Positions 22,999-39,327 of a DNA stretch of 64,000 nt are shown here, piece by piece (position 1 is the first letter of the stretch; each line of letters starts with the position of its first letter). Both the position numbers and the translations under genes were made by a program. The notes under the pieces were generated by a model. The model saw only the letters and a program-made list of their open reading frames with translations. It did no database searches and was not told the DNA's origin. This DNA comes from Acidobacteriaceae bacterium TAA 166 (GTDB lineage Bacteria > Acidobacteriota > Terriglobia > Terriglobales > Acidobacteriaceae): NCBI GenBank assembly GCA_000421065.1, contig ATWD01000001.1:1790001-1854000 (forward strand), given 5' to 3'.

Positions 22999-23106
22999 AA
23001 CTGACCTCCGAACGGATGAAGGTTTCGGATCCCGGCTTCTCATTGCTCACGAAGAGACGACGGGCTTCCCTTGGTGATAGAAGCCAAGTACCATAGATGC
23101 ATCGAC

Positions 23107-23177
23107 GGCGATGGAATCCGCCGCTAACCGCCTTCCGAAACGGAAGGCTGATGACTCCTACCACTCTGGTAGGGGTC
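23107..23177 (+). promoter_or_regulatory. Fluoride riboswitch 1 (crcB motif)
   Basis: The core starts with GGCGATGG and closes P1 with CGCC. It continues with TAACCGCC, an eight-base P2 hairpin (GCCTTCCG/CGGAAGGC) and GGCTGATGACTCCTACC. These are the conserved blocks of the fluoride aptamer. The 3' strand GACTCCTACC (23153-23162) can also pair with GGTAGGGGTC (23168-23177), forming a ten-base alternative hairpin that would act as expression platform; the T-run after it is weak. The first open frame downstream is the omega-like gene at 23270, then the MlaE-type permease. Predicted to switch genes on when fluoride is bound. Confidence 0.93.
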
Positions 23178-23269
23178 TGTCTCTCCTGACCAGCACAATT
23201 TGACTAAAACACCGCGCAGAGCTCGGTGTTCCAGTGCGTCCTGTAAGACGCATGGAAAAGGAGAGTCAC

Positions 23270-23482
23270 TTGCGATCGAAAGCTGTCTTCGAGGCTCATC
23301 ATGTCATTCCGGGTCGCTTCGCTCTATGCGCTGTTGGAGCGAAAGCGGTCCGGGTTCTTCACCCGAACAAGGAACGAATGGGCAGAACTATCGACAGGGT
23401 TCTCACAATCATCGGGGAGGGCACCCCAAATTCTGCCTCCGCGGATGCCCAGTCGCCCCCCACTCACCTTAGGACATCTTGA
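23270..23482 (+). CDS. RNA-polymerase omega-like small protein
   Basis: TTG start at 23270 with AAGGAG six bases upstream, a near-ideal ribosome site; an in-frame ATG at 23252 is the alternative. The 70-residue product begins LRSKAVFEAHHVIPGRFALC and goes on with AVGAKAVRVLHPNKERMG and RTIDRVLTII. This resembles RpoZ: an aromatic/Leu-rich first helix after a GRF/NRF motif, a basic second helix, and a T-I-x-x-V-L helix. The end is short and Pro/Ser-rich. It is the first gene after fluoride riboswitch 1. A housekeeping rpoZ should exist elsewhere; this would be a fluoride-inducible paralogue. The family call is by pattern only, and it could be an unrelated small protein. Confidence 0.5.
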   Translation: MRSKAVFEAHHVIPGRFALCAVGAKAVRVLHPNKERMGRTIDRVLTIIGEGTPNSASADAQSPPTHLRTS

Positions 23483-23604
23483 TTCATAATTTCTCGTCTC
23501 TCGGCAGCCCCTGATTGAGGAGAGCGGGAGACCCCGCCTCTCACACTCTTGGTTTACACCTGCCGGAATTCCGTTTTTTGGGACCGGGACCACGGAGTCA
23601 GACC

Positions 23605-24366
23605 ATGAATTTTCTCAAGAAGCATGTCGCCGTGGTTCAGGACTACTCGATCCTGTGCGGTCGGATGCTTAGGGGTCTATTGCAAAGACCTCATTGTACG
23701 GACGAGATCGTTTTCCAGGCGGACGCGATCGGTGTCGGCTCGGTGCCTATCGTAATGCTTACCGGATTCTTCACAGGAGCAATCCTCACACTTCAGACTT
23801 CCACGACGTTGGCGGAATTTGGAGCGACAACGACAACGGGACAACTGGTCAGCATTAGCATGGTCACGCAGCTCGGACCCGTTTTGAGTGGACTCATGGT
23901 TTCAGGTCGCAATTCTGCTGGAATAGCCAGCGAAATCGGATCCATGCTTGTGACCGATCAGATCGATGCGATGCGCGCCTTGGGGGCAGATCCGGTCAGA
24001 AGGCTCCTTGCGCCCCGGCTATTAGCAACATCGATCATGCTCATCTTCCTCACGATCATTGCTGATGCAATTGGAATACTCGGCGGGGCGGTGATTGCCT
24101 CCGCACTGCTCGGCCAGAACGGCTCAAAGTACTTTCATTCCGCATATGAAGCACTTCACTATTCGGATCTCTTTGAGGGCCTAGTCAAGCCATTCTTCTT
24201 TGGCTTCATCATTAGTTCCTCTGGCTGCTACTACGGAATGGCGACGCGGGGAGGGACGCAGGGTGTTGGACGGAGCACCACACACGCTGTAGTAACTGCG
24301 TCCACTCTGATTATTGTGACTAACTTTCTCATCAGCCGGCTCACGATCGGAATCTTTGGTCGCTGA
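23605..24366 (+). CDS. MlaE-type ABC permease, solitary
   Basis: ATG 23605 with GGAG nine bases upstream; 253 residues. It shows the MlaE/permease signature: a hydrophobic segment IVMLTGFFTGAILTLQTS, the conserved cytoplasmic loop SEIGSMLVTDQIDAMRALGADPVR, and the C-terminal GCYYGMATRGGTQGVGRSTTHAVV. Family members move phospholipids or other lipids across the Gram-negative envelope together with MlaF (ATPase) and MlaD (MCE protein). Neither partner is encoded nearby, which is odd. It lies 427 bases downstream of fluoride riboswitch 1 and 63 bases upstream of riboswitch 2, so it may be a membrane-remodelling response to fluoride. Family firm, role inferred. Confidence 0.88.
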   Translation: MNFLKKHVAVVQDYSILCGRMLRGLLQRPHCTDEIVFQADAIGVGSVPIVMLTGFFTGAILTLQTSTTLAEFGATTTTGQLVSISMVTQLGPVLSGLMVSGRNSAGIASEIGSMLVTDQIDAMRALGADPVRRLLAPRLLATSIMLIFLTIIADAIGILGGAVIASALLGQNGSKYFHSAYEALHYSDLFEGLVKPFFFGFIISSSGCYYGMATRGGTQGVGRSTTHAVVTASTLIIVTNFLISRLTIGIFGR

Positions 24367-24429
24367 GTTAAAGCTTCGATTGCTTGCCAAACCAGGTGTT
24401 GGATGCGAACCTTGTAGGGAAAAGTTTAC

Positions 24430-24498
24430 GGCGAAGGGGTTCGCCGGAACCGCTTCCTCGTTCGAGGAATGCTGATGACTCCTGGGATTCTCTAGGAG
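24430..24498 (+). promoter_or_regulatory. Fluoride riboswitch 2 (translational type)
   Basis: GGCGAAGG and TCGCC form P1, followed by GGAACCGC, a six-base hairpin (TTCCTC/GAGGAA) and GCTGATGACTCCT. GAAGG replaces the usual GATGG. The 3' strand CTCCT (24479-24483) is complementary to AGGAG (24494-24498), the ribosome site of the MFS gene whose ATG is at 24503. In the unbound state the ribosome site would be sequestered; fluoride binding would hold CTCCT inside the aptamer and free it. This arrangement indicates translational control. Confidence 0.87.
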
Positions 24499-24502
24499 AT
24501 CT

Positions 24503-25726
24503 ATGTCCGATTCCATCCAGGTTTCAGCTCCATCCAAGATCCGCTGGCTCACGCGCAACGTTTTTGCGATAGGCATGTTGAGCCTCTTTTCGGATACAGG
24601 ACACGAGCTTACAACGGCTATTCTCCCGCTTTTCCTCCAAAGCTTCGGCGGTGGTGCTATCGCCCTTGGAACGATCGAAGGAGTCTCCGACGCATCTTCC
24701 AGCCTCTTGAAGATGTGGATGTCGCATTATTCCGATCGCGTCGGGAAACGAAAGCCGATTCTCATTATCGGCTACCTCGTAACAGCCCTGATGGGCTGTT
24801 TCGCATTTGTGACTCGTTGGTGGCAACTTGTCGCAATACGAGCCATCGCGTGGATTGGGCGCGGAGCACGAGGACCGGTGAGGGATGCCCTGCTGGCAGA
24901 AAGTGTGCCTTCGGAAGCGCACGGTAGAGCCTTTGGCTTCGAAACCGCCATGGACACGGTAGGGGCTATCCTCGGTCCAGCGATTGCTTTCTCGTTGATT
25001 GGCATTATCAGTCTTAGGCACATCTTCCTGATCAGTTTTATCCCGGGTGCCATCACCGTCTTGATTGCAAGTTTCCTAGTCAAAGATATCGTGCGGCCGC
25101 CGCAGCCACACCTGAAGATATGGGGATCTCTTCGCGCTCTGCCAAAACCGTTTCTGCTCTATGTATCGGCGGTCGGAGTTTTCGGACTTGGAAACTTTGC
25201 GCACACGTTGCTCGTTTTGCGCGCAATCGCGCTCCTCACGCCGAGGTACGGCGCCATAAGCGCCGGCAGGATGGGAGTCGGCCTTTACATCCTCCATAAC
25301 GTCATCTACGCAGCTATCTCCTATCCCATCGGAGTTCTCGGCGATCGAATGCACAAGAAGTGGATTCTCGCCTGCGGATACGCGCTGTTCGGGCTAATGT
25401 GCATCTTGTTCATGTACAGCACCACTAATCTTGTTGTCCTTGCCGTCGTCTTCATTCTTGCCGGGATCTACATCGGCATCGTCGACTCGATGGAGAGAGC
25501 GCTGGCCGCTGATCTTCTTCCACTCAGCCAACGAGGCACCGGGTATGGCGCGCTTGCTACCGTCAACTCCTTTGGCGATCTCCTGTCCAGCATCCTTGTC
25601 GGTTTGCTTTGGAACCGTGTTTCCTATACGGCGGGCCTGAGCTATGCCGCGTTCCTCACACTACTCGGGTCAATCCTCTTATTTGTTTGGAAGCCGCAAC
25701 GTTTCATACCTACAGCGAGTCACTAG
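24503..25726 (+). CDS. MFS transporter under fluoride riboswitch
   Basis: 407 residues, twelve predicted membrane helices. The motif between helices 2 and 3 is DRVGKRKPILIIGYL, the MFS A-motif, and GRGARGPVRDALLAESVP resembles members annotated as fosmidomycin-type or drug-type MFS exporters. The C-terminal half has IGVLGDRMHKKWILACGYALFG, the repeat of the A-motif. The ribosome site AGGAG four bases before the ATG is part of riboswitch 2. The cargo is not determinable; being controlled by a fluoride sensor it could export fluoride, a fluorinated compound or a damaged metabolite. It is not a Fluc or CLC-F protein. Confidence 0.88.
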   Translation: MSDSIQVSAPSKIRWLTRNVFAIGMLSLFSDTGHELTTAILPLFLQSFGGGAIALGTIEGVSDASSSLLKMWMSHYSDRVGKRKPILIIGYLVTALMGCFAFVTRWWQLVAIRAIAWIGRGARGPVRDALLAESVPSEAHGRAFGFETAMDTVGAILGPAIAFSLIGIISLRHIFLISFIPGAITVLIASFLVKDIVRPPQPHLKIWGSLRALPKPFLLYVSAVGVFGLGNFAHTLLVLRAIALLTPRYGAISAGRMGVGLYILHNVIYAAISYPIGVLGDRMHKKWILACGYALFGLMCILFMYSTTNLVVLAVVFILAGIYIGIVDSMERALAADLLPLSQRGTGYGALATVNSFGDLLSSILVGLLWNRVSYTAGLSYAAFLTLLGSILLFVWKPQRFIPTASH

Positions 25727-25753
25727 TCCCAATTCATTCGGAAGGAAATCGTC

Positions 25754-25879
25754 ATGAACCAACCTGCCAAGACGTCATTTTGGAAAATCGTAGCCGTGTG
25801 GCTGGTCTTCTGTGCACCGTTTGCGCTGGGGATTTATCTGACATTGCGGGACGCGATACCCCTGCTGGCGCGAAAATGA
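25754..25879 (+). CDS. 41-residue single-pass membrane peptide
   Basis: ATG 25754 preceded by GGAAGGAA. The peptide has a short polar start (NQPAKTSFWK), one membrane helix (IVAVWLVFCAPFALGIYLTL) and a basic end (LLARK). It starts 28 bases after the MFS stop on the same strand and probably shares its riboswitch-controlled transcript. Small membrane peptides next to transporters are often accessory subunits; nothing more can be said. Confidence 0.6.
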   Translation: MNQPAKTSFWKIVAVWLVFCAPFALGIYLTLRDAIPLLARK

Positions 25880-25930
25880 GCGATCGACACTGCCTCCGTA
25901 GATGTCGCGTCGTCCCCGCATTTCGAACGT

Positions 25931-25965
25931 TTGAAATGTAACCATCGTTACATTTATAGTGTAAC
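25931..25965 (+). promoter_or_regulatory. Promoter with palindromic operator, leaderless start for ChrB gene
   Basis: A -35 box TTGAAA (25931-25936) and -10 box TATAGT (25955-25960) are separated by 18 bp. The spacer is almost filled by a dyad, ATGTAAC-N4-GTTACAT (25936-25953). A third half-site TGTAAC lies at 25960-25965. The ATG of the ChrB-like gene (25968) falls seven bases after the -10 box, where transcription would start, so the mRNA is predicted to be leaderless and has no ribosome site. A repressor bound to the dyad would block the polymerase completely. Confidence 0.75.
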
Positions 25966-25967
25966 GA

Positions 25968-26546
25968 ATGGCTAATTCGTGGCTTCTCCTAACCTACAAA
26001 GCTCCCGCCGAACCAGCAGCGAAACGAATCGCACTCTGGAGGAAGCTGAAGGCGATGGGCGCCGTCTACCTGCAAAACGGCGTCTGTTTGCTGCCTAAGA
26101 CGGACGATCATCTTCGCCGGCTCAAAGTAATTGAGAACGAGCTCGCCTCCATGGGCGGTGATGCCGTCCTGTTGGAGACGGTCGGCCCAGATCGTGCTCA
26201 GGAACAAAAGGTGATCGAGCGCTTTACCGCCGATCGGGATGAGGCGTATCGGGAGTTCCTCGGTAAGTGCGCCGACTTCGAAACGGAGATCGCAAGAGAG
26301 ACCGAAGCCGAACACTTCACATATGCCGAGCTTGAGGAGAACGATGAAGATCTGGAGAAGTTAAAGGGCTGGCTCTCTAAGATTCGCAAACTCGATTTCT
26401 ACAAGGCCCCGCTCTCTTCAGAGGCGGATGCGAGGCTTGAGCATTGCGCGGCACTTCTCGAGACATACGCAAAACGAGTGTTCGAGGCTCATGAGGAAAA
26501 CAATCCCGGTGCGTCTTCGTCCACCCGAGAAAAGAACAAGCCATGA
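25968..26546 (+). CDS. ChrB-like protein (ChrB N-terminal domain)
   Basis: 192 residues. The start NSWLLLTYKAPAEPAAKRIALWRKLKAMGAVYL matches the ChrB N-terminal domain, found in chromate-responsive regulators and in PaaX-like proteins. The remainder is strongly helical and charged (EIARETEAEHFTYAELEEND), with a basic, disordered C-terminus. Full ChrB has an additional C-terminal domain that is absent here. It is the first gene of a three-gene operon with a CDF-like and a PiT-like transporter. Together with the palindromic promoter it may be an autoregulator. The inducer, whether chromate, a metal or phosphate stress, is not known. Confidence 0.8.
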   Translation: MANSWLLLTYKAPAEPAAKRIALWRKLKAMGAVYLQNGVCLLPKTDDHLRRLKVIENELASMGGDAVLLETVGPDRAQEQKVIERFTADRDEAYREFLGKCADFETEIARETEAEHFTYAELEENDEDLEKLKGWLSKIRKLDFYKAPLSSEADARLEHCAALLETYAKRVFEAHEENNPGASSSTREKNKP

Positions 26547-27139
26547 TCCCTCAACGCCAATCCCTGCGACGGGTGATCGCAATCGTCGCTCTTCTGAATC
26601 TTGCGTACTTCGGTATTGAGTTCGCGGTGGCGCTTCGCATCGGCTCCGTATCGCTTCTCGCAGACAGTGCGGACTTTTTTGAGGACGCCGCCATCAACTT
26701 TCTCATCTTCTCTGCACTTGACTGGAGCGCAAGTCGCCGCGCGAACGTTGGGAGGTTGCTTTCGGCCGTCCTACTCGCACCCGCGCTCGCCTTTCTCTGG
26801 ACATTATTGGCAAAGTTCCATGCTCCGACCCCTCCGGCAGCAATACCGCTAAGCGTGACAGGTCTGGGCGCCTTGCTGATCAATCTTTTCAGCGCGTTAT
26901 TGCTGGTGCGGTACCGCGGCTACGCTGGGAGCCTTACCAAAGCGGCGTTTCTTTCCGCGCGCAACGATGCAATCGCCAATATTGCCATCATTGCGGCTGG
27001 TCTCTTCACCCTACGTCTCCGTTCGGTGTGGCCTGACGTGATAGTCGGGTGTGGTATCGCATTGATGAATCTGAACGCGGCGCGCGAAGTCTGGGCGGCC
27101 GCCCGTGATGAACACCTCCTTGCCAAGGCACGGGCGTAA
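26543..27139 (+). CDS. Divergent CDF-like cation transporter
   Basis: The ATG overlaps the ChrB-like stop (ATGA). 198 residues, six hydrophobic segments. The CDF fold is indicated by YFGIEFAVALRIGSVSLLADSADFFEDAAINF (helices 1-2) and AAFLSARNDAIANIAIIAAG (helix 5). In typical CDF proteins helix 5 has HxxxD; here the His position is Ser (SARND), and helix 2 has an extra acidic residue. The cytoplasmic C-terminal domain and the His-rich loop are missing. It may carry a different ion or have lost zinc transport. Annotated family: CDF/ZitB-like. Confidence 0.75.
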   Translation: MIPQRQSLRRVIAIVALLNLAYFGIEFAVALRIGSVSLLADSADFFEDAAINFLIFSALDWSASRRANVGRLLSAVLLAPALAFLWTLLAKFHAPTPPAAIPLSVTGLGALLINLFSALLLVRYRGYAGSLTKAAFLSARNDAIANIAIIAAGLFTLRLRSVWPDVIVGCGIALMNLNAAREVWAAARDEHLLAKARA

Positions 27140-27177
27140 CCGGACACAAGAGCTGAAGGCTCAAAAGGGTAGCTTCG

Positions 27178-28149
27178 ATGGACCATGCTCTCACGCTCGG
27201 CATGTTGATGGCGGGCCTCTTCTTTGGTTGGACCATCGGCTCGCACTACACGGGCGCAACTATGGGCATGGCTTATGGCTCTGGGCTCATTAAGAGTCGC
27301 ACCCGCGCTACTGTGTTAGTCGCCGTTTTCGTGTTGATCGGGGCGACTTTTGACAGCTCGCATGTGGTCTCGACTGTAGGCACCGGCATCGTCCGCAACG
27401 AGGATCTGACTCCGCTCGGCGCTATGGTGATGATGTTGACCGCAGCATTGGTCACTGCTGCCAATACCTGGATGAAGTGGCCAGTCTCCACATCCCAGCT
27501 GGCTTGTTTCTCTGTCGTGGGAGCGGCATTGGCCATGCACGCCCCGATATTCTGGCGCACGACTATCTTGTTGCTCTTCGTCACCTGGATCGGCACTCCG
27601 CTGATCAGCGGCCTGCTCGGATTTGCGTTTACGCGTATCGTGGACAGGGTCAGTGGCCGATACGGCCATCGTGCAGAACGGGGCCTCCGCTGGCTGCTCC
27701 TCGTCGCATCCTGCTATGCCGCATATACCCTTGGGGCAAACAACACAGGCAATGCCGTCGGTGTTTTCTACGGTTTGCACAAGATGAGCCAAATACAAGC
27801 AGGCTTCATCGGCGGCATCGCTATGGCGATCGGAGCCCTGACCTGGGGACGACCGATTCTCGACAAAGTGGGGAAGGGCCTGGTCGATTTGGATATAAAC
27901 ATGGGAGTCAGCGCGAAACTCGCGCAAAGCATCGCGGCCCACACAGCCGCATGGATTGGGTATCCGACCTCTATGAATCAAGCTTTGCTCGGCGGGATTG
28001 CGGGAGCTACTGGTGCAAGAGGTCGGGAGCCGATAAGTTGGAAGGCTGTCCGAGAGATCGTTTTCTCGTGGTTCTTCACGCCGGTACTCGCCGGTGCGGT
28101 GTCCTTCCTGCTTTATACACTCTTGTCTCGGCTACTCCGAGTGCACTGA
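27178..28149 (+). CDS. PiT-family inorganic phosphate transporter
   Basis: 323 residues, ATG 27178 with AAAGGG upstream. The PiT inverted repeats are visible: IGATFDSSHVVSTVGTGIV in the first half and TLGANNTGNAVGVFYGL in the second, plus WMKWPVSTSQLACFSVVGAAL and YPTSMNQALLGGIAGA. The canonical GANDxAN motif is changed to GATFDSSHVVS and GANNTGNAVG, so the transported oxyanion could differ from phosphate. It is the last gene of the ChrB-like operon and is followed by riboswitch 3 and pyrophosphatase. A link to phosphate supply during fluoride stress is plausible but inferred. Confidence 0.85.
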   Translation: MDHALTLGMLMAGLFFGWTIGSHYTGATMGMAYGSGLIKSRTRATVLVAVFVLIGATFDSSHVVSTVGTGIVRNEDLTPLGAMVMMLTAALVTAANTWMKWPVSTSQLACFSVVGAALAMHAPIFWRTTILLLFVTWIGTPLISGLLGFAFTRIVDRVSGRYGHRAERGLRWLLLVASCYAAYTLGANNTGNAVGVFYGLHKMSQIQAGFIGGIAMAIGALTWGRPILDKVGKGLVDLDINMGVSAKLAQSIAAHTAAWIGYPTSMNQALLGGIAGATGARGREPISWKAVREIVFSWFFTPVLAGAVSFLLYTLLSRLLRVH

Positions 28150-28394
28150 AATGCTCGCGTTGGTCCTCCGAAGTTGTGGGGCGCAGGACGAGGCTTCGTG
28201 AGAAGACCAAGGTGAATCCCTTCGTCAGTCAGACGGACTGCCGATGGAATTCGACTGAAGTTCACTGTCGCTCCCGAGGTAGACTTTGTAATTTTGTTGT
28301 TTGGCAAGAAACTCTCTCAAGTCGCGTACTAAAAGTACCAAGGTTTATTAGCAAGCGGGTTGCAGCCTTCACTCAAATATGGTCTGCTTGTATC

Positions 28395-28471
28395 GGCGAT
28401 GGAATCCGCCCCGGCTCGCCGGAATGCCTCCGAAATGGAAGGCTAATGACTCCTACCATGTGTGTAGGAGT
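28395..28471 (+). promoter_or_regulatory. Fluoride riboswitch 3 upstream of pyrophosphatase
   Basis: GGCGATGG...CCGCC forms P1. A small inserted hairpin (CCGG-CTCG-CCGG) follows, then AATGCC, a P2 hairpin and GGCTAATGACTCCTACC. The 3' strand ACTCCTAC (28449-28456) pairs perfectly with GTAGGAGT (28464-28471), the alternative hairpin. Only a weak pyrimidine run (CCCTTTC) follows, so transcriptional or RNA-folding control is possible. The pyrophosphatase ATG is 41 bases downstream. The inserted hairpin is a variation relative to riboswitches 1 and 4. The 28150-28394 region upstream holds no gene. Confidence 0.88.
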
Positions 28472-28511
28472 GTCCCTTTCTGCTCCTGCCCACCTCAGCA
28501 GAAGGGATACT

Positions 28512-29054
28512 ATGACGGACTATCTTCGTTTGGAAATTGGTGACAATGCTCCTGACATCGTCACCACAGTAATCGAAATCCCCCGAGACAGCACGAATAA
28601 ATACGAATATGACAAGAAGAGGCATGTCTTCAAGTTAGATAGAACCCTCTATTCGCCGGTCCATTATCCAGCCGACTATGGATTCATTCCGCAGACGCTC
28701 GCGGAAGACGGCGATCCACTAGACATCCTTGTTCTCGGAGAGCACCCTACCTTCCCAGGTTGTGTCTACGATGCACAACCGATCGGTCTCTTTCGCATGA
28801 TCGATCAGGGTGTGCCTGACGAGAAGATCCTGGCGATCGCTACTGGAAATCCCCGCTTCACTGGGACCAAAGAATACTCCGAGGTGCAGCCACATATCCT
28901 CAAGGAAATGGAGCATTTTTTCTCCATTTACAAGGTCCTCGAAGGGAAGGAAACCAGCGTACAAGGCTGGAGCAGCGCCGCCATCGCAAGAGAGATGATC
29001 CTCACCTGCCACCGTCGTTTCATGGACGCTCATAAGGGAGAGGACAAGCCATGA
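28512..29054 (+). CDS. ppa: Family I inorganic pyrophosphatase
   Basis: 180 residues from ATG 28512, AGAAGGGA upstream. The frame is open far upstream into the phosphate transporter, but without ribosome site; the product only looks like PPase from here. Motifs: VIEIPRDSTNKYEYDK, PVHYPADYGFIPQT, and the metal-binding signature EDGDPLDILVLG. It hydrolyses PPi to phosphate in the cytoplasm. Fluoride is a classic inhibitor of family I PPase, through Mg-F at the active site, and PPase is a known gene class behind fluoride riboswitches. Overproduction would compensate. The gene overlaps the next one by four bases. Confidence 0.96.
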   Translation: MTDYLRLEIGDNAPDIVTTVIEIPRDSTNKYEYDKKRHVFKLDRTLYSPVHYPADYGFIPQTLAEDGDPLDILVLGEHPTFPGCVYDAQPIGLFRMIDQGVPDEKILAIATGNPRFTGTKEYSEVQPHILKEMEHFFSIYKVLEGKETSVQGWSSAAIAREMILTCHRRFMDAHKGEDKP

Positions 29055-29329
29055 ATCCGCAGGCGTCGAATAACGGAACGTCCACGAAGACAGCGAGAGA
29101 AATAGACCCTCAGGCACCGAAGACCAAGACTGACGAAAAGATGGCGCGTCACTTTGACGGCATCATCTTTGGGGTCTTGATCGCACTCGCTTTAGGTGTG
29201 CTCATCGCGATTTGGATTCTCCATCATCGCGGACAGAAAGGGGTGCCTCACGCCCATCCCAGGAACTCCGCACAACAGGCGGCCGCACCGATACATCAAC
29301 GACTCCCCGAAGAGTGTGCCTGCACGTGA
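29051..29329 (+). CDS. Small single-pass membrane protein
   Basis: 92 residues; ATG overlaps the pyrophosphatase stop (ATGA), so translation is coupled. A polar N-terminal part (about 35 residues, Thr/Lys/Asp-rich) leads to one membrane helix, IIFGVLIALALGVLIAIWIL, followed by a His/Arg-rich cytoplasmic or periplasmic tail ending in CACT. I do not recognise the family. It may anchor or assist pyrophosphatase, since it is co-translated with it, but this is inference. Confidence 0.7.
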   Translation: MNPQASNNGTSTKTAREIDPQAPKTKTDEKMARHFDGIIFGVLIALALGVLIAIWILHHRGQKGVPHAHPRNSAQQAAAPIHQRLPEECACT

Positions 29330-29353
29330 ACTTCGTTTTCAAAGGAGCAATAC

Positions 29354-30064
29354 ATGAGAGTGGCAATTATTTCCGACATACACGCTAACTTTCCGGCACT
29401 GCGCGCTTTCTCAGAGAATTGGGATGAGCTATGGGTCATAGGTGACCTCGTGAACTACGGACCGAATCCAAACGAAGTGATCGAATGGGTTCAGACGCAT
29501 GCCCATTGCGTAGTCCGCGGCAATCATGATCACGCGATCGGATTCTCTGTCGACCCGCGATGTTCTGCTCCTTATCGTGCGATGGCCGCCGAGACAGGAG
29601 CCTTCACAGCGAAAGTGCTGTCAGAACAATCGAAGCGTTATCTCGAGAAGCTACCGCTCACAGTCGAGCGCCGTTTGCGCGAGCACACCTTTTATCTTGT
29701 TCACGCCACTCCATCAGATCCGCTCTTTGGATATCTCGACAAGGATGCGCCACTTTGGGACGCTGAAGTCAAAGCCACCGGTGCCAAACTCGTAGTCACA
29801 GGGCACACGCATGTTCCTTTCATTCGAGCCGTCGACAACCAGATATTGATTAATCCCGGGAGCATTGGCCAGCCAAAGACAGGAACGCCGGAGGCATGCT
29901 ACGCAATCTGGGAGGATGGCCATCTGGAGCTCCGGAGGTATCCATATCCTGTGGCCGATACGGAATCGGAGATCCGGGCCATGCCAATTTCTGATCCGGT
30001 AAAGGCAGATCTTATTCAGTCGCTCATGACTGGCGGCGTCAGCGCACAACAAGTCAACGGATGA
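29354..30064 (+). CDS. Calcineurin-like metallophosphoesterase (YfcE type)
   Basis: 236 residues, ATG with AAAGGAGC upstream. The metal-binding motifs are complete: AIISDIHANFPAL (D-x-H), VIGDLVNYGPNPNE (G-D), VVRGNHDHA (G-N-H-D), VHATPSD and VVTGHTHVPF (GH-x-H). This matches small MJ0936/YfcE-type phosphodiesterases. The substrate in the cell is unknown; a phosphate-ester or nucleotide is likely. It is the third gene behind riboswitch 3, so it probably participates in fluoride-stressed phosphate metabolism. Confidence 0.88.
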   Translation: MRVAIISDIHANFPALRAFSENWDELWVIGDLVNYGPNPNEVIEWVQTHAHCVVRGNHDHAIGFSVDPRCSAPYRAMAAETGAFTAKVLSEQSKRYLEKLPLTVERRLREHTFYLVHATPSDPLFGYLDKDAPLWDAEVKATGAKLVVTGHTHVPFIRAVDNQILINPGSIGQPKTGTPEACYAIWEDGHLELRRYPYPVADTESEIRAMPISDPVKADLIQSLMTGGVSAQQVNG

Positions 30065-30095
30065 GGTTCGTGGCATAAAGCGGACGGGTGACGTC

Positions 30096-30503: not shown

Positions 30504-30550
30504 CGTTCTGTTTTTTCTCCAAGTACTGGTCTTGTCAGCCGTAGAATCTA

Positions 30551-30838: not shown

Positions 30839-30904
30839 AGGGAGGAGATGCTCTCTACATCCAAACGCGCTTTGCGAATCCGTTCAGTCTTCGGAAATAG
30901 ACCT

Positions 30905-31450
30905 CTAAGCAATGTGAAGCCATACTCCAATAATTGACAAGGCGATTCCCGACGCCACGAGTGCGAAAATCCAGATCACTGTCCTACCTCTGACAATGTG
31001 CGCCAGCGTCACACCCAATAAACCTAGTGCCACGATTGAGGGTGCAACTGCGAGAAGAGCAGGCCCAGGGATAAAGGAACCCAGACAAAGTGGAAACAGG
31101 GCTCCGAGAAAGTTTGCTCCACTGGACAGAAGGGCGGAAGCAAAGGCGTCTAAGCGAACCTGCTTACCGAGCTGCGAAGTGACAAACTGACCATGACTGG
31201 CGAGGCTGAGCTGACGCTCCGCGTGGATCAACTCTCCGCGTAGCCGCGCATATTCAGCTGTGAAAAAAACAAAGACACCGCAAACAGCCGATCCAAGTGC
31301 AATGCGAAAGGAGAGTTCAATGGTCGGCTTCGATCCGGCCACAAGATGCCCGGACGCTAATGTAAGGGCCGTGAGAATTCCATCGGTGAGTCCTATCACG
31401 ATCGCGAACATCTGCTTTCTGTTGAACACGGAGTCTAATACGCTCTTCAT
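30905..31450 (-). CDS. VIT1/CCC1-like transporter
   Basis: 181 residues; ATG 31450 overlaps the DUF211 stop (ATGA). Five hydrophobic segments. The first helix, FAIVIGLTDGILTALTLASGHL, matches the start of VIT1/CCC1 proteins, which move Fe2+ or Mn2+ out of the cytoplasm. The loop EYARLRGELIHAERQLSLA also resembles the family. The usual metal-binding domain is shortened. Behind fluoride riboswitch 4, it may export a metal, or a metal-fluoride species, when fluoride is present; this is inference. Confidence 0.75.
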   Translation of the reverse strand: MKSVLDSVFNRKQMFAIVIGLTDGILTALTLASGHLVAGSKPTIELSFRIALGSAVCGVFVFFTAEYARLRGELIHAERQLSLASHGQFVTSQLGKQVRLDAFASALLSSGANFLGALFPLCLGSFIPGPALLAVAPSIVALGLLGVTLAHIVRGRTVIWIFALVASGIALSIIGVWLHIA

Positions 31451-31740
31451 CGTGAGCGCCCGACCTTTTCAATAAGAAGACTCCCGGCTGCAAGTTCATC
31501 GATACTATGAACAACGGCTCCAGCACTCTCAATGGCGCGAACGATCGAGTCGTAGTCGAGCATCTCTCCTTGGATGGTAATCTCCATTCCTACCGTCTCG
31601 ACATCGATCTCAGTTACTGTGATGTTGAGCGCATCAACGCCAGACACCTCGCTGATCAGCGCGGCGATCTCGGGGAGCTGAGGACGGGCGATTGCTTTAT
31701 CCACGTCAAGGACGAGGCGGCGAATATTCAAAGCGGACAT
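31447..31740 (-). CDS. DUF211 protein
   Basis: ATG 31740 with GGAGG about eight bases upstream; 97 residues. The frame extends upstream through the riboswitch terminator, which is not expected to be translated. NIRRLVLDVDKAIARPQLPE, VDALNITVTEIDVETVGMEITI and VHSIDELAAG are the DUF211 consensus blocks, a small ferredoxin-like fold best known from archaea. In archaea it often neighbours membrane transporters; here it is translationally coupled to a VIT-like protein. It may be a metal-sensing or chaperone subunit for the transporter. Function of the family is not established. Confidence 0.85.
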   Translation of the reverse strand: MSALNIRRLVLDVDKAIARPQLPEIAALISEVSGVDALNITVTEIDVETVGMEITIQGEMLDYDSIVRAIESAGAVVHSIDELAAGSLLIEKVGRSR

Positions 31741-31892
31741 CTCGTAGGCCTCCAAAGATCCAGTGAGAGATCGTATTCCGACCGCCCGCGCCAGCTGAAC
31801 TGCATTCACTTCGACGTCTATGTTCCTGGCCCGTTTATTCTTTCGTACATGGTTGGCGGTTATGCTACTCAAACACAATAGGGACTCAAACG

Positions 31893-31919
31893 AAAAAATC
31901 CCTGTCGATAGACAGGGAT
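31893..31919 (-). terminator. Regulatory intrinsic terminator of riboswitch 4
   Basis: Nine-base perfect stem (31898-31906 with 31911-31919), GATA/TATC loop, T6 at 31893-31898 on the transcribed sense. The left arm overlaps the 3' end of the fluoride aptamer, so the two structures are mutually exclusive. Confidence 0.92.
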
Positions 31920-31965
31920 CATTAGCCTTCCGCTTCGGAAGGCGGTTATGGTGGATTCCATCACC
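31893..31965 (-). promoter_or_regulatory. Fluoride riboswitch 4 with intrinsic terminator
   Basis: Read on the minus strand from 31965: GGTGATGG...CCACC (P1), ATAACCGCC, a P2 hairpin (GCCTTCCG/CGGAAGGC) and GGCTAATGATCCCTG. P1 is GGTG/CACC here but GGCG/CGCC in riboswitch 1, a compensatory change supporting the RNA fold. The expression platform is a perfect nine-base stem, ATCCCTGTC/GACAGGGAT with a four-base loop, followed by six U residues: a textbook terminator. Ligand binding would prevent it and let polymerase read into the DUF211 and VIT-like genes. Confidence 0.95.
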
Positions 31966-32047
31966 TACAGTATGAGATGCGATTTGTGAATGCCGAGTTC
32001 GCCTGTTTGATCCAAGCGGAACGAGCCCGACAGGATAGAGCCTGTCT

Positions 32048-33292
32048 TTACGGCCTCAGCAATCGCAGATCTATAGCTTCTCCCATGGCTTCGTATCCTG
32101 CGTCACTGGGGTGTAGATGGTCCCCGTGATCGAATTTTGGCAGATACTGCTGCGGATTGTTCGGATCGCGAGTTACCTGGTCGAAATCGGCCACGCCATC
32201 GAATGTTCCACTGGTGCGAATCCAGTTGTTGAGAGCGACGCGGACCGCTTCACCTTCCTCTGAGTAATAGCCTGCGCCCTTATATGGAGTCAGCGTGGCC
32301 CCTATGACCTTGATGTTGTACGTGTGCGCTCGATCGACCAGCTGTTTCAGCCCCGTTTCCAAATCGATAACAGAGATATCGTCTGCCGGAGCCCGCGGAT
32401 GGGAGAGCCGACCAATGTCGTTGATGCCCTCGAGCACAATCAGATATCGGACACCGCTCTGCGCTGTTACATCGCGGTCAAAACGAGCCAACGCATTCTG
32501 AGCCCATCCGTCATTCAATATACGGTTTCCATCGATTCCTTCATCCAGAACGCCGAGTTGGCCTGAACCTGTATGCTGGCTGAGCCTTTGAGCCAGATAA
32601 TCAGGCCAACGATGGTTCGCGTCTACGGTTGAGTACGCGCCATCTGTAATGGAGTCTCCAAAAGCCACCACCGCCCCGGCGTCATCGCCGGCTGCCACAT
32701 CGATTCCGTCCAGAAAGTACCATGACGTTTGCTTGTGTGCAGCTGGGAGGGTCGGCGATGCCGCTTCATCTCCCTCAACCATATAACTCGTTTGCCTCGC
32801 GTCCGAATGGTAGGTGTAATTGGGCAAATCCTGCCCCGGCAGATAGAAGCTTATGGCCACACCGGAAAGCTGCGGAAGCTTTATGTTCACTGGGTCGCTG
32901 TACATCTCTGCGCCTGCCGGAATCTTTACGGCAGTCTGACCGTTGAACGTAAGCTGACGATCTGTAGCCGGCTGCGTATTTCCGTTGCCGGAGCTCAACG
33001 CAATGTGCGCGTTGCTAATCTGCAGCGGTATGATTCCATAGCGATTTGTAAAGCGAACGCGCGCCTGCTCACCGGCGATCGATGTATGCACGATCTCTCG
33101 TAGAGTCACCTTACCGAAGGGCAAGAGTCCGCTGTCATTCATCGGGATCATCGGCGCGCTGGCCCAGGTTCCCACCCAATGAGCTTTCGCAGCGATTTGA
33201 GCTCCTCCGTTCAGCCATGCGTGGGATATAGCGATCGTCAAAAGCCCGCAAAGCGAAGCTCTGTTTGTGCACTTATTCCTGAACCAGTTCAT
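32048..33292 (-). CDS. Exported SGNH/GDSL hydrolase
   Basis: 414 residues; ATG 33292 overlaps the preceding MutS-like stop (ATGA) and has AGGAGAG five bases upstream. After a signal peptide come VGTWASAPM (family start), block I AFGDSITDGAYS with the nucleophile Ser, block III VLEGINDIG with Asn, and block V DHLHPSDAGYEAMG with Asp-x-x-His. This is the SGNH-type esterase family with an N-terminal beta-domain, often acting on plant polysaccharide esters. Being the third gene of a fluoride-riboswitch operon with MutS-like ATPases is unexpected and suggests a detoxifying or envelope role. The substrate is unknown. Confidence 0.88.
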   Translation of the reverse strand: MNWFRNKCTNRASLCGLLTIAISHAWLNGGAQIAAKAHWVGTWASAPMIPMNDSGLLPFGKVTLREIVHTSIAGEQARVRFTNRYGIIPLQISNAHIALSSGNGNTQPATDRQLTFNGQTAVKIPAGAEMYSDPVNIKLPQLSGVAISFYLPGQDLPNYTYHSDARQTSYMVEGDEAASPTLPAAHKQTSWYFLDGIDVAAGDDAGAVVAFGDSITDGAYSTVDANHRWPDYLAQRLSQHTGSGQLGVLDEGIDGNRILNDGWAQNALARFDRDVTAQSGVRYLIVLEGINDIGRLSHPRAPADDISVIDLETGLKQLVDRAHTYNIKVIGATLTPYKGAGYYSEEGEAVRVALNNWIRTSGTFDGVADFDQVTRDPNNPQQYLPKFDHGDHLHPSDAGYEAMGEAIDLRLLRP

Positions 33293-34857
33293 TCTCTCTC
33301 CTGTAGGGAATCTAAAGCGTCTGCGGTGGCAATGTCCTCTGTGACGGCGAAGATGCGTCGATATAGGTCTTCTCCATAGCTGGTTGGAAGTGGCTCGGAT
33401 TCCAGAAGCCGGAACGTGCGCACTCCATCCGACAGCCTCTCCGCACGAAGGAATAGAGCGTTGGAGGTCATTGTGCGGTAGAAGCCAATCGCAAGATCAA
33501 ACATATGCGTCACGTAGAGTACCTTGACTCCACTATCGAGCATAGCCGTGACGATTTGCCTTGCTATCTCTGAACCCTCTCTCTCATTGGTGGAGCCGAA
33601 GGATTCGTTCAGTAGAACCATGCTGTTTGGAGTGACATAATCTACGGTCACGCTCATCCTGTTGAGCTCTTCGTCGAGCTTTCCGCTTCTCATCCCCGTG
33701 TCTTCTTCTCTCTTGAAGTGCGTGTAGACGCCAACGCAGATGTTCGCTCGAAAGGACTGAGCCGGGGAGAACATGCCGCATTGCATCATCAATTGCGCCA
33801 ATCCTACGCTGCGCAAAAATGTCGACTTCCCACCTCGGTTCGCACCGGTGATCATCACGAGGGACTTACCGTCCGCGTTGACATCATTGCCGACAACCCT
33901 CTCGGAAATTCTCAGGCTCAGGCAGACATCGTACAGTCCTTGAGCGGACAGATCTACGCTTTCAGACTTCATGGGTGCTGGAAGACAGATTGGTTCTCCT
34001 TTGCCCACAAGCAGTTCACGCAAATTCAAACAGCCGATGTAAAACCCCAGTTCAGTTCGCAACATCGTAAAAAAGCTAAGAATATGGTCGGTGGATTGAG
34101 CGAGCGCGGAGGCAACCTGGCTAATTCCTCGGCCCTTCAGCTCCGACAGTGCCCTGTGGCCAGCTTCATCTCGACCGTCCACCTCGTAGACAAAACGTGA
34201 TCGATCACCCGGTGCCAGTCGCTCAAACCATTGTCGAAGTCGTTCCCTCCACCCATGCTTTGCGTCCCGTGGCTTGCGGAGGATGTAATTGGTGCCTTGA
34301 TTGCCTCTTCCGAGTTCGGCACTCATTAGAATTCCGCTTTCCTTGAAGGACAATCGTCGTAAGTGTTCATCGACGGTCCTCAGATAGTCGTCGTCAAGCT
34401 CGTTGGAAATCATGTCAAAGAATCGAGTGAACCCCTCCGAATGGAATCCGGAACGCTGCAGATCCGCAATGCTGCGGAGGCGTTTCAGCAGGCCCACAAA
34501 GATCGCAAGCACCTCGACGGACCGCGTCAGCAGTCCTTCGGGGTACCTGCCGAAGATAGAACCCCAGACCTTTTTCTCGCGTTCGATTGCCTCTGTGGCA
34601 ATGAGATACATCTCCCTGACAACGGCAGATCGTTCAAGGCAATCGGTGAGCACCCGCTGTCGATACAGAATGTCGTCTGGCTGCTTGAGGCTTGTAAGCA
34701 TTGACTTCTCGGCAACTTGCAACAGAAATTTGTCTCCGCTAGCCATCGCCTCCCATAGCGTCTCGACCTCAAGATCGTTCACGAACTCAGGGGAATTGAT
34801 CGGGATCTTTCCCTGCATGTCGAAATCTCGATCCCGGTACATCAGGAATGCCTTCAT
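33289..34857 (-). CDS. MutS-family ATPase B
   Basis: Start at ATG 34857, overlapping the stop of ATPase A; the frame extends further upstream but there it overlaps A. 522 residues. The N-terminal and middle regions are helical lever/core-like (WEAMASGDKFLLQVAEKSML, DILYRQRVLTDCL). The C-terminal MutS_V ATPase has Walker A ITGANRGGKSTFLRSVG and the switch region YTHFKREEDTGMRSGKLDEELNRM. The Walker B position reads VLLNESFGSTNEREGSEI, with Asn instead of the usual Asp of DE. It lacks the mismatch-recognition domain I, so it is not a canonical MutS. Co-regulated with ATPase A by riboswitch 5. Confidence 0.85.
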   Translation of the reverse strand: MKAFLMYRDRDFDMQGKIPINSPEFVNDLEVETLWEAMASGDKFLLQVAEKSMLTSLKQPDDILYRQRVLTDCLERSAVVREMYLIATEAIEREKKVWGSIFGRYPEGLLTRSVEVLAIFVGLLKRLRSIADLQRSGFHSEGFTRFFDMISNELDDDYLRTVDEHLRRLSFKESGILMSAELGRGNQGTNYILRKPRDAKHGWRERLRQWFERLAPGDRSRFVYEVDGRDEAGHRALSELKGRGISQVASALAQSTDHILSFFTMLRTELGFYIGCLNLRELLVGKGEPICLPAPMKSESVDLSAQGLYDVCLSLRISERVVGNDVNADGKSLVMITGANRGGKSTFLRSVGLAQLMMQCGMFSPAQSFRANICVGVYTHFKREEDTGMRSGKLDEELNRMSVTVDYVTPNSMVLLNESFGSTNEREGSEIARQIVTAMLDSGVKVLYVTHMFDLAIGFYRTMTSNALFLRAERLSDGVRTFRLLESEPLPTSYGEDLYRRIFAVTEDIATADALDSLQERE

Positions 34858-36611
34858 GACGCGATGCGCCTCCTCACGCTTTCGTACGTGAGGCGGTACT
34901 TTTCGGCGATAGCAGCCGCGTAGGCGAGCCCGTCTGCAGGTTTGCGAAGGATCTTGAAGGTTCGTTGCGCGGTATTCTCCGAGCGCACTGTGCTGACCAT
35001 GCTCACCGTGGTTTCCCCAAGGGATGCCAGCTCGTCGAGGAATGTCACCGACACACAAAGAATGTCTCTCGCAATAATCTGCCCCATGATCTTCTTGCTA
35101 AGAAAGAGCGCGTCGCTGAGCGTTGTCGAGACAAAGCTTTCATTCATGATCACAATGCTTTTGGATGTGGCTTGTTCGAGGATCTTATGGATTCTTTCCA
35201 GATCATCTTCAAGCTTGCCGCTGAGGTTCTGAAGATCTTCCTCCTTTTCAAAATGAGTAAACATTCTGTCAAAGAGATAGAGCTGCGCTTCCTTTCCAGG
35301 GACGGGGCTCCCAATGGCGGCGAGGTGATGGAGTTGCCCAAACGTACGCGCAAAAGTCGTCTTGCCCCCCTGGTTAGGACCAGAAACGACGATTATCCTT
35401 TCCGGATCCCGAAGGGAAAAATCATTTGTGACTACGGATGCCTTTTCGCGGCGTAGCTTGTCCGCGAGGGCTAGATCGAACACGTCTCTGCCGAAGACCT
35501 CTTTGGACTGATCGGACACGGTGGGATAACAGAAGTTCAGGTCTATTCTCTTGAAAAGATCGATGAATTCGAGACAGGCAATGTAGAACTGTATTTCACG
35601 ATCGAAAGCGCGAACGACTTTGTCTAAGAAGAAGCGGCGGCGAGTACAGTACTCTCCCAGTGACGAGAAGATGTCGGGGAAAAGGTGGGCAACCATGTCC
35701 AGGACTGCAGCTTCGATATGGTTCATCTCCGACTGAGAAGAGAATTCAAACGGATATTCCCTGGGCGCTCCCTGTTTGAATCGATCGAACGTCTGCAAGA
35801 CATCGGCGCCATAATCGGGTTCTATTTCAAATTGGCCAACAGAGATTCGATTTCCCTCTAGATGAAGGGAATATTTAATACCCGCAAGATCAGTTCTCAG
35901 TTGTTCTGTCTCCGCGAGCAACGCCCTAAAGTCTGCCGATTCGGTATAGCTGATTAGGTAATTGAGAAATGATGAAAAGCCGCGCGAACGAGGGGTCGAT
36001 ATGGCGAGATCGCGAGATAGACGTTTCACAGCGCCACAGTATGTATCGACCGCATGTAGAAACCAGCTCTGCTTCTGAAGGTCGTAATAAAGTTTGTCTG
36101 ATCGCGCGAGATCTGATCGCATGGCGCGCATCCTGCCGGCAAACGAATGAATATGGACTAAGAGCGCCTGATTCTCAAGGTCGTGGAATACATCGTGACG
36201 ATAGTTGATTGTCCCAACGTCATCTGCGGGAATATAGAAGAAGGGCTTCAGGTTGTATTCATCGCGCCCGGAGGTAATAGTGGCGACGACCTGATCGAGA
36301 TTTAGGTCGACGAAGTATTCCGGTGCATTTCGCCACTCGAAGTTCCCGATTCCGTCGTACTTGTCGAACAAGATGCTGCGAAAAGACATGGCTTGTCGCT
36401 CTCCCTCCAAGGCGATGCTTGATTCATATCGATCTAGACGGGACGCGTCGAAGGCTGACCACCTTCTAAATGCTCGTTCATGACCTGTACGTCCACGAGG
36501 GGGGCTGGTGAATCCGAGGAACTGCTTGCGCATACCGCGGCGTGAACGACGGTACGCAAACCAGCGTCTAACAAAATCCCGGATTTCTTGAATTGGCCTA
36601 GCATGGGTCAC
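34854..36611 (-). CDS. MutS-family ATPase A
   Basis: 585 residues if GTG 36611 is the start; ATG 36389, with a GGAGGGAGAG tract upstream, is an alternative that would remove 74 basic residues. A nearer ATG at 36604 is out of frame. The C-terminal ATPase has Walker A VVSGPNQGGKTTFARTFG, the conserved FTHFEKEEDLQNLSGKLEDD and the Walker B position SIVIMNESFVSTTLSDA, again Asn for Asp. Middle and N-terminal helical parts resemble MutS III/IV but no mismatch-binding domain is visible. It overlaps ATPase B by four bases; the pair may form a heterodimer. MutS-like genes behind crcB-motif RNAs have been noted, to my recollection; what they do is unknown. Confidence 0.83.
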   Translation of the reverse strand: MTHARPIQEIRDFVRRWFAYRRSRRGMRKQFLGFTSPPRGRTGHERAFRRWSAFDASRLDRYESSIALEGERQAMSFRSILFDKYDGIGNFEWRNAPEYFVDLNLDQVVATITSGRDEYNLKPFFYIPADDVGTINYRHDVFHDLENQALLVHIHSFAGRMRAMRSDLARSDKLYYDLQKQSWFLHAVDTYCGAVKRLSRDLAISTPRSRGFSSFLNYLISYTESADFRALLAETEQLRTDLAGIKYSLHLEGNRISVGQFEIEPDYGADVLQTFDRFKQGAPREYPFEFSSQSEMNHIEAAVLDMVAHLFPDIFSSLGEYCTRRRFFLDKVVRAFDREIQFYIACLEFIDLFKRIDLNFCYPTVSDQSKEVFGRDVFDLALADKLRREKASVVTNDFSLRDPERIIVVSGPNQGGKTTFARTFGQLHHLAAIGSPVPGKEAQLYLFDRMFTHFEKEEDLQNLSGKLEDDLERIHKILEQATSKSIVIMNESFVSTTLSDALFLSKKIMGQIIARDILCVSVTFLDELASLGETTVSMVSTVRSENTAQRTFKILRKPADGLAYAAAIAEKYRLTYESVRRRIAS

Positions 36612-36684
36612 TCCTATCGAGTTCGAGATCTCGTAGGAGTCATCTTCCCCGGGAGGGGCAATTAATGGTGGACTCCAACACCCA
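36610..36684 (-). promoter_or_regulatory. Fluoride riboswitch 5 (translational type)
   Basis: Read from 36684 on the minus strand: GGTGTTGGAGTCCACC (P1 and P3 5' strand), TTAATTGCC, a hairpin CCCC/GGGG, AAGATGACTCCTAC. GGAGTC and GACTCC are complementary, as in the fluoride fold. It is the most diverged of the five (GTTGG for GATGG, TTAATTGCC for TAACCGCC). The 3' strand ACTCCTA, on plus-strand 36634-36640, can pair with TAGGAGT (36610-36616), next to the start of MutS-like ATPase A, sequestering its ribosome site. Translational control is predicted. Confidence 0.8.
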
Positions 36685-37073
36685 CGCTAGCTTGAGTATT
36701 CCAAGAGTGAAATCTTCTGTCAATGAACCCTACGATCTTCAACCGGTGCGACCGTAGAACCGGTTAGCCCTCGTGAAAGAGGTGGATGAACGCCTCGGAC
36801 ACTAGAGCCCACAAATAGGCTGGCATCGCTTCATATTGAAATGTCTATGCTCCCGAACAAGAGCTTGGTGAGAATCGGGCAACGCCGCTTACTTGCGTCT
36901 GCTCCAAGTGAGCTAAAAGGGCATTCGCGTATGTTCTAAATTCAAAGTTGTTTCTCTGCTTTAGAGCTTCCCGAACGCAGGGAGAATCCACGCGAGAGTG
37001 AAAGTGTCGTGTGTCATGGCAGTGTCCCAGATACTATACCTGGGGACGGACAGAGCCTTAGGGATCGATTAGT
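36685..37073. other. Intergenic region, promoters for divergent genes
   Basis: No gene found. It must hold the promoters of the MutS-like operon and the universal stress protein. A bulged hairpin (GTCCC...GGGGAC, about 37022-37045) lies about 30 bases upstream of the stress-protein start and could be a regulatory leader; it does not match the fluoride motif. Confidence 0.4.
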
Positions 37074-37565
37074 ATGGTCGCAGCCGCGGACAGCCTCTTG
37101 CGCGATTCCGACGAAAAGGCGGGCAGATCCATCGCTATCGACTCATTCCATAAGATTCTTATCGCCGACGACGGAACGCCGGAAGGTGAGCGGGCCGTCG
37201 AAATGGGTGTCCGCTTGGCCGCCATGATTCAGGCGGAGGTCGTCTTGCTCGGAATCGTTCCGCTTCAGAACATACATCCATCCGGGGGGGGCGCCGAAAT
37301 AGATGATCCATCGATCCGCCATCGCCGGATTGAGAAACGATTCTACGAGTACCTGCATCTGGGCAGATCGCTCGGGCTTGAAATCTCTGCAGATATCGTG
37401 GAAGGCTTGGCTGAGGTGCAGATCAGAAGGCGAGCCAAATCGGATGGGGTAGACCTTATTATCGTGGGGCACCATAAGGTAAACCGGCTACAGCGGTGGT
37501 TCGCTCAATCCATTGCACAAACCCTGTTGCGAGACACCGATTGTTCCGTGATGTCCGCCCAATAA
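37074..37565 (+). CDS. Universal stress protein (UspA family)
   Basis: 163 residues, ATG 37074, AGGGA about nine bases upstream. A 20-residue polar N-terminal stretch is followed by the Usp fold: FHKILIADDGTPEGERAVEMGVRLAAMI at the first strand and helix, VVLLGIV, and a C-terminal VDLIIVGHHKVNRLQRWFAQSIAQTLLRDTDCSVM. The ATP-binding signature G-x2-G-x9-G(S/T) is altered (GHHKVNRLQRWFAQSIA), so nucleotide binding is doubtful. Usp genes are a known class in fluoride-responsive regulons, which fits the position at the end of the island, but no riboswitch is seen directly upstream. Confidence 0.85.
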   Translation: MVAAADSLLRDSDEKAGRSIAIDSFHKILIADDGTPEGERAVEMGVRLAAMIQAEVVLLGIVPLQNIHPSGGGAEIDDPSIRHRRIEKRFYEYLHLGRSLGLEISADIVEGLAEVQIRRRAKSDGVDLIIVGHHKVNRLQRWFAQSIAQTLLRDTDCSVMSAQ

Positions 37566-37929: not shown

Positions 37930-38035
37930 TATTTTCAATCACTTACAAGGCGGGCGAAAAATTATTGGGGTCCTTTAGGGTCCAATAAGGATTTTCTTCT
38001 TTCCCCTCCCTTCGGATTCTTCTTTCCGTCCCTCT

Positions 38036-39228: not shown

Positions 39229-39327
39229 GCTTTCTCCTTCGTTTCAACGGCACGGATGGCTATCTCTAGGATAGCTAGTGTGCCGCGTGAACGGTAGAGG
39301 TCCGCAATTGAAAGATTGAGAAGACTG

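Follow-up and report, generated by a model that had tools for sequence, protein, structure and literature searches.

Fluoride riboswitches and their leaders

The window analyzed here is a 64,000-nucleotide stretch of the genome of Acidobacteriaceae bacterium TAA 166 (assembly GCA_000421065.1, contig ATWD01000001.1, positions 1,790,001 to 1,854,000; window position 24421 is C1:1814421), in which a preliminary description had proposed five fluoride riboswitches. We searched it with the Rfam covariance model RF01734 (gathering cut-off 34 bits) and recovered all five elements, spanning 23098-36691; four score above the cut-off and the fifth reaches 30.5 bits. In each leader, the pairing of a downstream strand with the GACTCCTAC end of the aptamer (the anti-stem) was compared with 500 dinucleotide shuffles, and the number of shuffles matching it is given with each element.

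23098-23167, plus strand: RS1, fluoride riboswitch aptamer 5' of an MlaE-type permease gene; 57.7 bits, anti-stem 2/500
24421-24491, plus strand: RS2, fluoride riboswitch before an MFS gene; 37.9 bits, anti-stem 209/500
28386-28462, plus strand: RS3, fluoride riboswitch before a pyrophosphatase gene; 39.2 bits, anti-stem 0/500
31906-31974, minus strand: RS4, fluoride riboswitch before a DUF211 gene; 46.0 bits, anti-stem 0/500
36627-36691, minus strand: RS5, fluoride riboswitch below the Rfam cut-off; 30.5 bits, E 4.3e-5, anti-stem 0/500

The same search over the whole genome (6.14 Mb in 3 contigs, E <= 0.001) gave 20 matches, 16 above the cut-off and four below, and 18 of the 20 lie within C1:1,697,026-1,826,691. 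One weak match, C1:1727366 (25.3 bits, anti-stem in 160/500 shuffles), is missing much of the aptamer core and was excluded, leaving 19 elements. Seventeen of these fall inside 130 kb (the island) in two blocks, with 12 in block A (~1.696-1.744 Mb) and the five of the window in block B. The other two are C2:195572, at a decayed CLC-F locus, and C1:3415535, the leader of a CLC gene. With 20 matches, 19 of them kept, this is the largest set of fluoride riboswitches among the genomes examined, the next largest being 12.

The helix P1 reads GGCG/CGCC in 10 of the kept aptamers, GGTG/CACC in eight and TGCG/CGCC in one. It is fully paired in 18 of the 19, with both sides changing together, so that the compensated variation described earlier for the window holds across the genome. 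In the alignment of the genome's aptamers, the core around GATGACTCCT is near-invariant. In 18 of the 20 genome leaders, no more than 22 of 500 shuffles matched the anti-stem, and for four of the window's five the number was 0-2; the earlier statement that all five window leaders carry such a downstream strand was borne out for these four and failed for RS2.

The leaders suggest two kinds of expression platform, terminator-like and ribosome-site-hiding. A hairpin with a T-rich tail follows in the leaders at C1:1697026, 1705177, 1717340 and window 31906, the last of which (RS4) overlaps a terminator-like hairpin at 31897-31920 found by a terminator scan (17 such sites in the region versus 13.5 in shuffles). 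In the CLC leaders 1720234 and 3415535 and in the MFS leader at window 24421, a ribosome site directly before the start codon lies within the stem's reach. RS2 is predicted to hide such a site, AGGAG, which stands immediately 5' of the ATG at 24503. Directly upstream of RS5 lies a sigma-70-like site, TTGACA-17-AATACT, at 36723-36695 (8 such sites in the region versus 8.4 in shuffles).

Many of the elements might instead be decayed or inactive relics with no fluoride control. Four of the 20 matches score below the Rfam cut-off, 1727366 lacks an anti-stem as well as much of its core, and C2:195572 precedes a decayed gene, all of which would fit such a history. The anti-stems exceeding shuffles in 18 of 20 leaders, the intact P1 in 18 of 19 aptamers and the near-invariant core argue against it, however, and we give this explanation very little credence.

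The number of elements is unusual for the group, in keeping with the earlier remark that the window holds more copies than the usual one or two. Under strict filters, with which some weak matches are lost, 36 same-genus genomes have 0-2 RF01734 elements each and none of the 60 relatives has more than three. In a sample of 396 genomes of the phylum (E <= 1e-5, with up to 12 candidates scored in each), 135 have a match; the TAA 166 genome has at least 12, and the next highest count is four. We also inspected 10 same-genus regions from nine genomes, part of those with matches, and all 13 riboswitches there directly precede CrcB or CLC-F. In this sample, the genus norm is one switch per one exporter.

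Genes of the window

Gene calls were made with a custom script, and families were assigned by Pfam profile search. Counts out of 80 refer to the MutS loci, which are the best 80 of 489 loci from a scan of named genomes, chosen by the protein MutS-like 1.

23605-24366, plus strand: MlaE-family permease, likely the RS1 target, about 438 nucleotides downstream; PF02405, E 1.8e-72; 0/80 MutS loci
24503-25726, plus strand: MFS transporter, RS2 target; PF07690; relatives in 22/80 MutS loci
25968-26546, plus strand: protein with a ChrB N-terminal domain; PF20229, E 1.3e-43
26543-27139, plus strand: cation-efflux-like membrane protein; PF01545, E 1.4e-9
27178-28149, plus strand: PiT-type phosphate transporter; PF01384, E 2.8e-47
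28512-29054, plus strand: inorganic pyrophosphatase, RS3 target; PF00719; 66% identical to a riboswitch-led copy in block A
29354-30064, plus strand: metallophosphoesterase; PF12850; 47% identical to one behind a block A riboswitch
30096-30503, plus strand: HEAT-repeat protein, PF13646, with a weak zinc-ribbon match (PF12773, below its cut-off)
31447-31740, minus strand: DUF211 protein, RS4 target; PF02680, E 6.5e-30
30905-31450, minus strand: open reading frame (ORF) for a 181-residue protein, overlapping the DUF211 gene; no Pfam match; relatives in 2/80 MutS loci
34854-36389, minus strand: MutS-like ATPase 2, first gene behind RS5; PF00488, with MutS domain V alone recognized
33289-34857, minus strand: MutS-like ATPase 1, 4-base overlap with MutS-like 2; PF00488
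32048-33292, minus strand: GDSL/SGNH hydrolase, third gene of the RS5 operon, 4-base overlap with MutS-like 1; PF13472; 0/80 MutS loci

A possible small ORF without a Pfam match lies between RS1 and the MlaE gene (23271-23480). Another ORF of 95 residues, on the minus strand at window 30551-30838, appears Hfq/Sm-like by eye and likewise has no Pfam match.

Block A and the fluoride exporters

The riboswitch-led genes of block A encode a pyrophosphatase; a metallophosphoesterase with a CFA synthase, a weakly matching HEAT protein and a HAD hydrolase; a LysR regulator with a pyridine-nucleotide-disulphide oxidoreductase; a second CFA-type protein; an RND pump (OEP, HlyD, AcrB); a CLC protein; an AAA ATPase; a dynamin-like protein, CrcB and DUF190, then, past a gap, another dynamin-like protein; enolase with a third dynamin-like protein; and a hydrogenase-4/complex-I-like operon, behind which come IlvD, UspA and a protein of the histidine-phosphatase family. 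The ORFs behind riboswitches 1699398 and 1717340 matched no Pfam family. Several of these genes are additional copies: enolase is present in two full copies in the genome, one of them in the island, and pyrophosphatase in four, two of them riboswitch-led in the island. Full-length CFA-type synthases are confined to the island, and elsewhere only two weak partial matches occur.

The preliminary description had noted neither crcB nor CLC-F at the locus and had suggested that the island may be a distinct strategy of fluoride tolerance. Both genes are indeed absent within the window, but a genome search finds crcB and a CLC-F-like gene in block A, 65-72 kb to its left and still inside the 130-kb cluster; their apparent lack arises because the window border cuts the island, and a strategy that dispenses with exporters is unsupported. 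CrcB (C1:1724476-1724856) has no internal stops and matches PF02537 at 91.7 bits, above the cut-off. Among solved structures, the product of the CLC gene at C1:1718447 (L030:8450-10222) is nearest to 6d0j, a CLC-type fluoride/proton antiporter, with a score of 206.6 bits where the next family reaches 46.9; this groups it with CLC-F rather than with chloride CLC proteins. The further CLC gene at C1:3415810, behind the riboswitch leader C1:3415535, has an open frame of 604 residues and was classed only as Voltage_CLC.

The C-terminal tail of the CLC protein at C1:1718447 has a weak match to DUF190 (21.1 bits versus a cut-off of 23.4), the family encoded beside CrcB; this may hint at a regulatory domain common to CLC and the CrcB-adjacent family.

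The remaining kept element lies on contig 2 (C2:195572, 46.6 bits), with a HAD gene on one side and a PGM/UvrB pair on the other (C2:195089-195641, equal to L034:7089-7641). Two relatives of the same genus (L138 and L142) have these neighbors around a CLC-F gene that is led by a riboswitch and has a long open frame; the neighboring proteins of TAA 166 are 93-94% (UvrB), 80-84% (PGM) and 74-76% (HAD) identical to theirs. In TAA 166, CLC-F at this locus consists of fragments only, one of which, 46 residues long, is 98% identical to L138. The native CLC-F exporter thus appears to have become dispensable, possibly after the arrival of the island, and the survival of the riboswitch next to a decayed gene suggests that a native exporter can become unnecessary once such a kit is acquired.

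The MutS-like pair in other genomes

Repair was among the functions on which the preliminary description thought the island might be based. In both MutS-like proteins behind RS5, the Pfam match is confined to MutS domain V (the ATPase), and every listed PDB match of MutS-like 1 to solved MutS proteins begins at residue 293 or later. The mismatch-recognition N-terminal domain was not found in either protein (by Pfam, and for MutS-like 1 also by PDB matches). Because the proteins match in the ATPase domain alone, a role in repair is doubtful. AlphaFold gave a poor model of MutS-like 1, with a mean predicted local distance difference test (pLDDT) score of 59.6, and the MutS and MutS2 structures that Foldseek matches to it are a hint only.

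MutS-like 2 was not found in any of the 59 other same-genus genomes at E <= 1e-20, and MutS-like 1 was not found in 395 of the 396 phylum-sample genomes (E <= 1e-60, with three candidates per genome scored). Relatives are common in the databases, with 8000 candidates at E < 0.001, and 119 others among the matches listed are 63-84% identical. By title, the carriers include Acidobacteriaceae metagenome-assembled genomes (MAGs), Elusimicrobia, Desulfosporosinus, Thermoanaerobacter, Moorella, Bathyarchaeota, Mesorhizobium, among others, and binning errors are possible in the many that are MAGs.

The two genes are adjacent in 74 of the 80 MutS loci, although counts of MutS genes in these loci are not independent, since the loci were chosen by MutS-like 1. 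We compared the genes of the TAA 166 blocks with the same loci. A counterpart in at least one locus was found for 36 of 61 block genes versus three of 56 genes between the blocks, and the mean number of loci per gene was 7.0 (about 4.5 minus the two MutS genes) versus 0.12. All 40 MutS-carrying genomes tested (of the 80) have an RF01734 match at E <= 0.001, between 1 and 12 each, and in 37 of them it is above the cut-off; at the same E-value, 42 of 61 relatives have a match. Desulfosporosinus sp. PR has 12 matches, and 19 other genomes of its genus have 0-1.

Of the 102 riboswitches in the MutS loci, 29 have no gene of this kit in the 700 nucleotides behind them and 73 do. The genes behind these 73 are MutS-like 2 (30 cases), HyfC-like (8), enolase (7), dynamin-like (7 and 4), pyrophosphatase (6) and others. 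We also searched the loci with R1, a sequence-only model without base pairs, built from the genome's own 19 elements and four relatives. At E < 0.01 it gave 95 matches across 44 of the 80 loci, 27 of the plus-strand matches falling in the last 2 kb.

One carrier of the pair is titled 'Candidatus Formimonas warabiya strain DCMF'. This organism ferments dichloromethane. Its presence among the carriers would suit an explanation in which TAA 166 makes or degrades organofluorines and the regulon answers fluoride released in the cell. Similarly, PMC6785547 cites Methylobacterium extorquens DM4, said to have 10 or more fluoride riboswitches, as an organism that may consume fluorinated hydrocarbons. 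The titles of the carriers, however, name, for example, groundwater, bog, palsa, SulCav and Centralia and nothing on organofluorine, and we regard this explanation as highly unlikely.

Origin of the island

The MutS pair was not found in the 59 other same-genus genomes, yet occurs across phyla with many of the same genes, from which we conclude that the super-regulon was likely acquired horizontally in part; the direction of transfer and the order of events we infer. Taken together, the five window elements are the right block of a 17-element, 130-kb region that would turn on a dispersed set of protection operons under fluoride, a set probably acquired in part horizontally that probably took over from the native riboswitch-controlled CLC-F.

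Several observations weigh against this interpretation. No integration border was found, and 184 kb contained no other exact copy of the tRNA-Val 3' end. The guanine plus cytosine (GC) contents of the blocks are 0.555 and 0.538 versus a background mean of 0.595, with nine of 44 background bins at or below 0.556. The 80 MutS loci lack counterparts of 25 of the 61 block genes, among them the riboswitch-led genes for MlaE, GDSL, LysR, the HAD hydrolase and the oxidoreductase, so that parts of the island look like local additions; counterparts are also scarce for IlvD (one) and CLC-F (two, distant), and the whole gene set was not found together in any one locus. Transfer may have been within the family, because the carriers of the pair include other Acidobacteriaceae MAGs. 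R1 finds no riboswitch at E < 0.01 in 36 of the 80 loci, and in only 24 of 62 eligible loci does it place one upstream of MutS-like 1, on its strand and no more than 3 kb away; it is less sensitive than the Rfam model, which gave matches in five of seven rechecked loci among those 36. The anti-stem is not significant in two leaders (RS2 and the weak 1727366). Finally, aptamers 1818386 and 1721215 have an unusual insertion in common, a sign of aptamer copying inside the genome.

Some of these points favor an island that grew mainly in the lineage, a native riboswitch having been copied many times before resident stress genes with no gene acquisition. The insertion common to 1818386 and 1721215 and a CTTCCGAAACGGA-like hairpin in several aptamers speak for such copying, and the 66% and 47% identities of the pyrophosphatases and metallophosphoesterases between the blocks, as well as the 25 genes without counterparts, are consistent with it. 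Against it stands the MutS pair, which was not found in the 59 other same-genus genomes and which in other phyla is accompanied by riboswitches and by many of the genes seen here. We therefore consider growth within the lineage unlikely and favor partial horizontal acquisition.

In a bolder form of this interpretation, the MutS pair would mark a transferable fluoride super-regulon that crosses phyla and displaces native exporters, the pair itself being a new kind of non-repair factor against fluoride damage that perhaps clears fluoride-poisoned stalled ribosomes or nucleic-acid complexes. Such clearing is conceivable because a MutS2-like architecture allows it; the proposal as a whole is possible but doubtful.

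Flanking and intervening genes were also inspected. At window 37853-39567, a tRNA-Val is followed by an integrase-like ORF (38170-39102; PF00589, 36 bits) and an HTH_17 protein (39328-39567). Integration of the island at this tRNA was rejected, its 3' end having no exact repeat, and GC content was dropped as proof of transfer, the block values being within the background range. Left of block A (L028, C1:1670001-1680000) are DNA polymerase III alpha-like and ParB-like genes, which may belong to a plasmid backbone or one of the integrative and conjugative element type. Between the blocks, at C1:1761000-1775000 (L032, L033), we noted by eye a cluster resembling copper/heavy-metal resistance genes (P-type ATPase, multicopper oxidase).

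Proposed mechanism

Fluoride binding and fluoride-induced expression would be expected of these leaders from the known riboswitch class and the anti-stems. Without fluoride, the strand after each aptamer would pair with the GACTCCTAC end, forming a terminator or hiding a ribosome site; binding of Mg-fluoride would keep the GACTCCTAC end in the aptamer, so that expression could proceed. The induced proteins, whose putative roles we deduce from their families, would act at several levels. CrcB and CLC-F would export fluoride, and enolase and the two pyrophosphatases would serve as spare copies of fluoride-inhibited enzymes. PiT, the metallophosphoesterases and the hydrogenase-4/complex-I-like operon may restore phosphate and proton balance, while the two CFA synthases, the dynamin-like GTPases and MlaE may remodel the membrane. 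Added efflux pumps and the MutS-like ATPase pair would complete the response. If the elements work, this one genome lists a cell's anti-fluoride measures beyond export, and old puzzles, such as the MutS-like, dynamin-like and hydrogenase-4-like genes behind fluoride riboswitches, become testable.

Comparison with known systems

Many of the gene associations have precedents. Genes for mutS, Cl- transport and formate hydrogenlyase behind this RNA appear in the 2010 report (Weinberg, PMC2864571); according to a review (PMC11139923), its common targets include genes for pyrophosphatase, enolase, HAD, a Na+/H+ antiporter and formate hydrogenlyase, and phosphate transporters are named in PMC9971707. 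No report of a comparable riboswitch cluster, or of CFA synthase, DUF190 or dynamin as targets, was found in the open-access literature searched; PMC12421806 mentions 'cyclopropane' only as a test substrate.

The elements resemble the RF01734 class in their core, P1 pairing, 5' position and a switch overlapping the aptamer. They differ in number, with 19 kept elements in one genome and 17 within 130 kb, and in their further genes (CFA synthases, RND pump, dynamin-like GTPases, MlaE and IlvD; the RND pump, MlaE and IlvD were not searched by name). A described island of this kind is GI3 of Enterobacter cloacae FRM (PMC5533749), where crcB and the genes for pyrophosphatase, UspA, enolase and phosphoglycerate mutase stand under a fluoride riboswitch; the authors consider this fluoride set horizontally acquired. 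In GI3, one riboswitch drives a single six-gene operon, whereas here many riboswitches precede distinct operons spread over two blocks, and CLC-F and a MutS-like pair are included. M. extorquens DM4 also has many fluoride riboswitches, but the number cited for it in PMC6785547, 'at least 10', is about half of that found here. Two carriers of the MutS-like pair come nearest in number, Desulfosporosinus sp. PR (L052) with its 12 RF01734 matches and the Silvibacterium MAG JOPF107 (L043) with 11, of which equal-score matches on different contigs may be assembly duplicates; both have fewer elements and another mix of genes. The riboswitch class and many of its gene associations are thus known, and what is new in TAA 166 is the scale of the set, its dispersed layout and the MutS-like pair as its hallmark.

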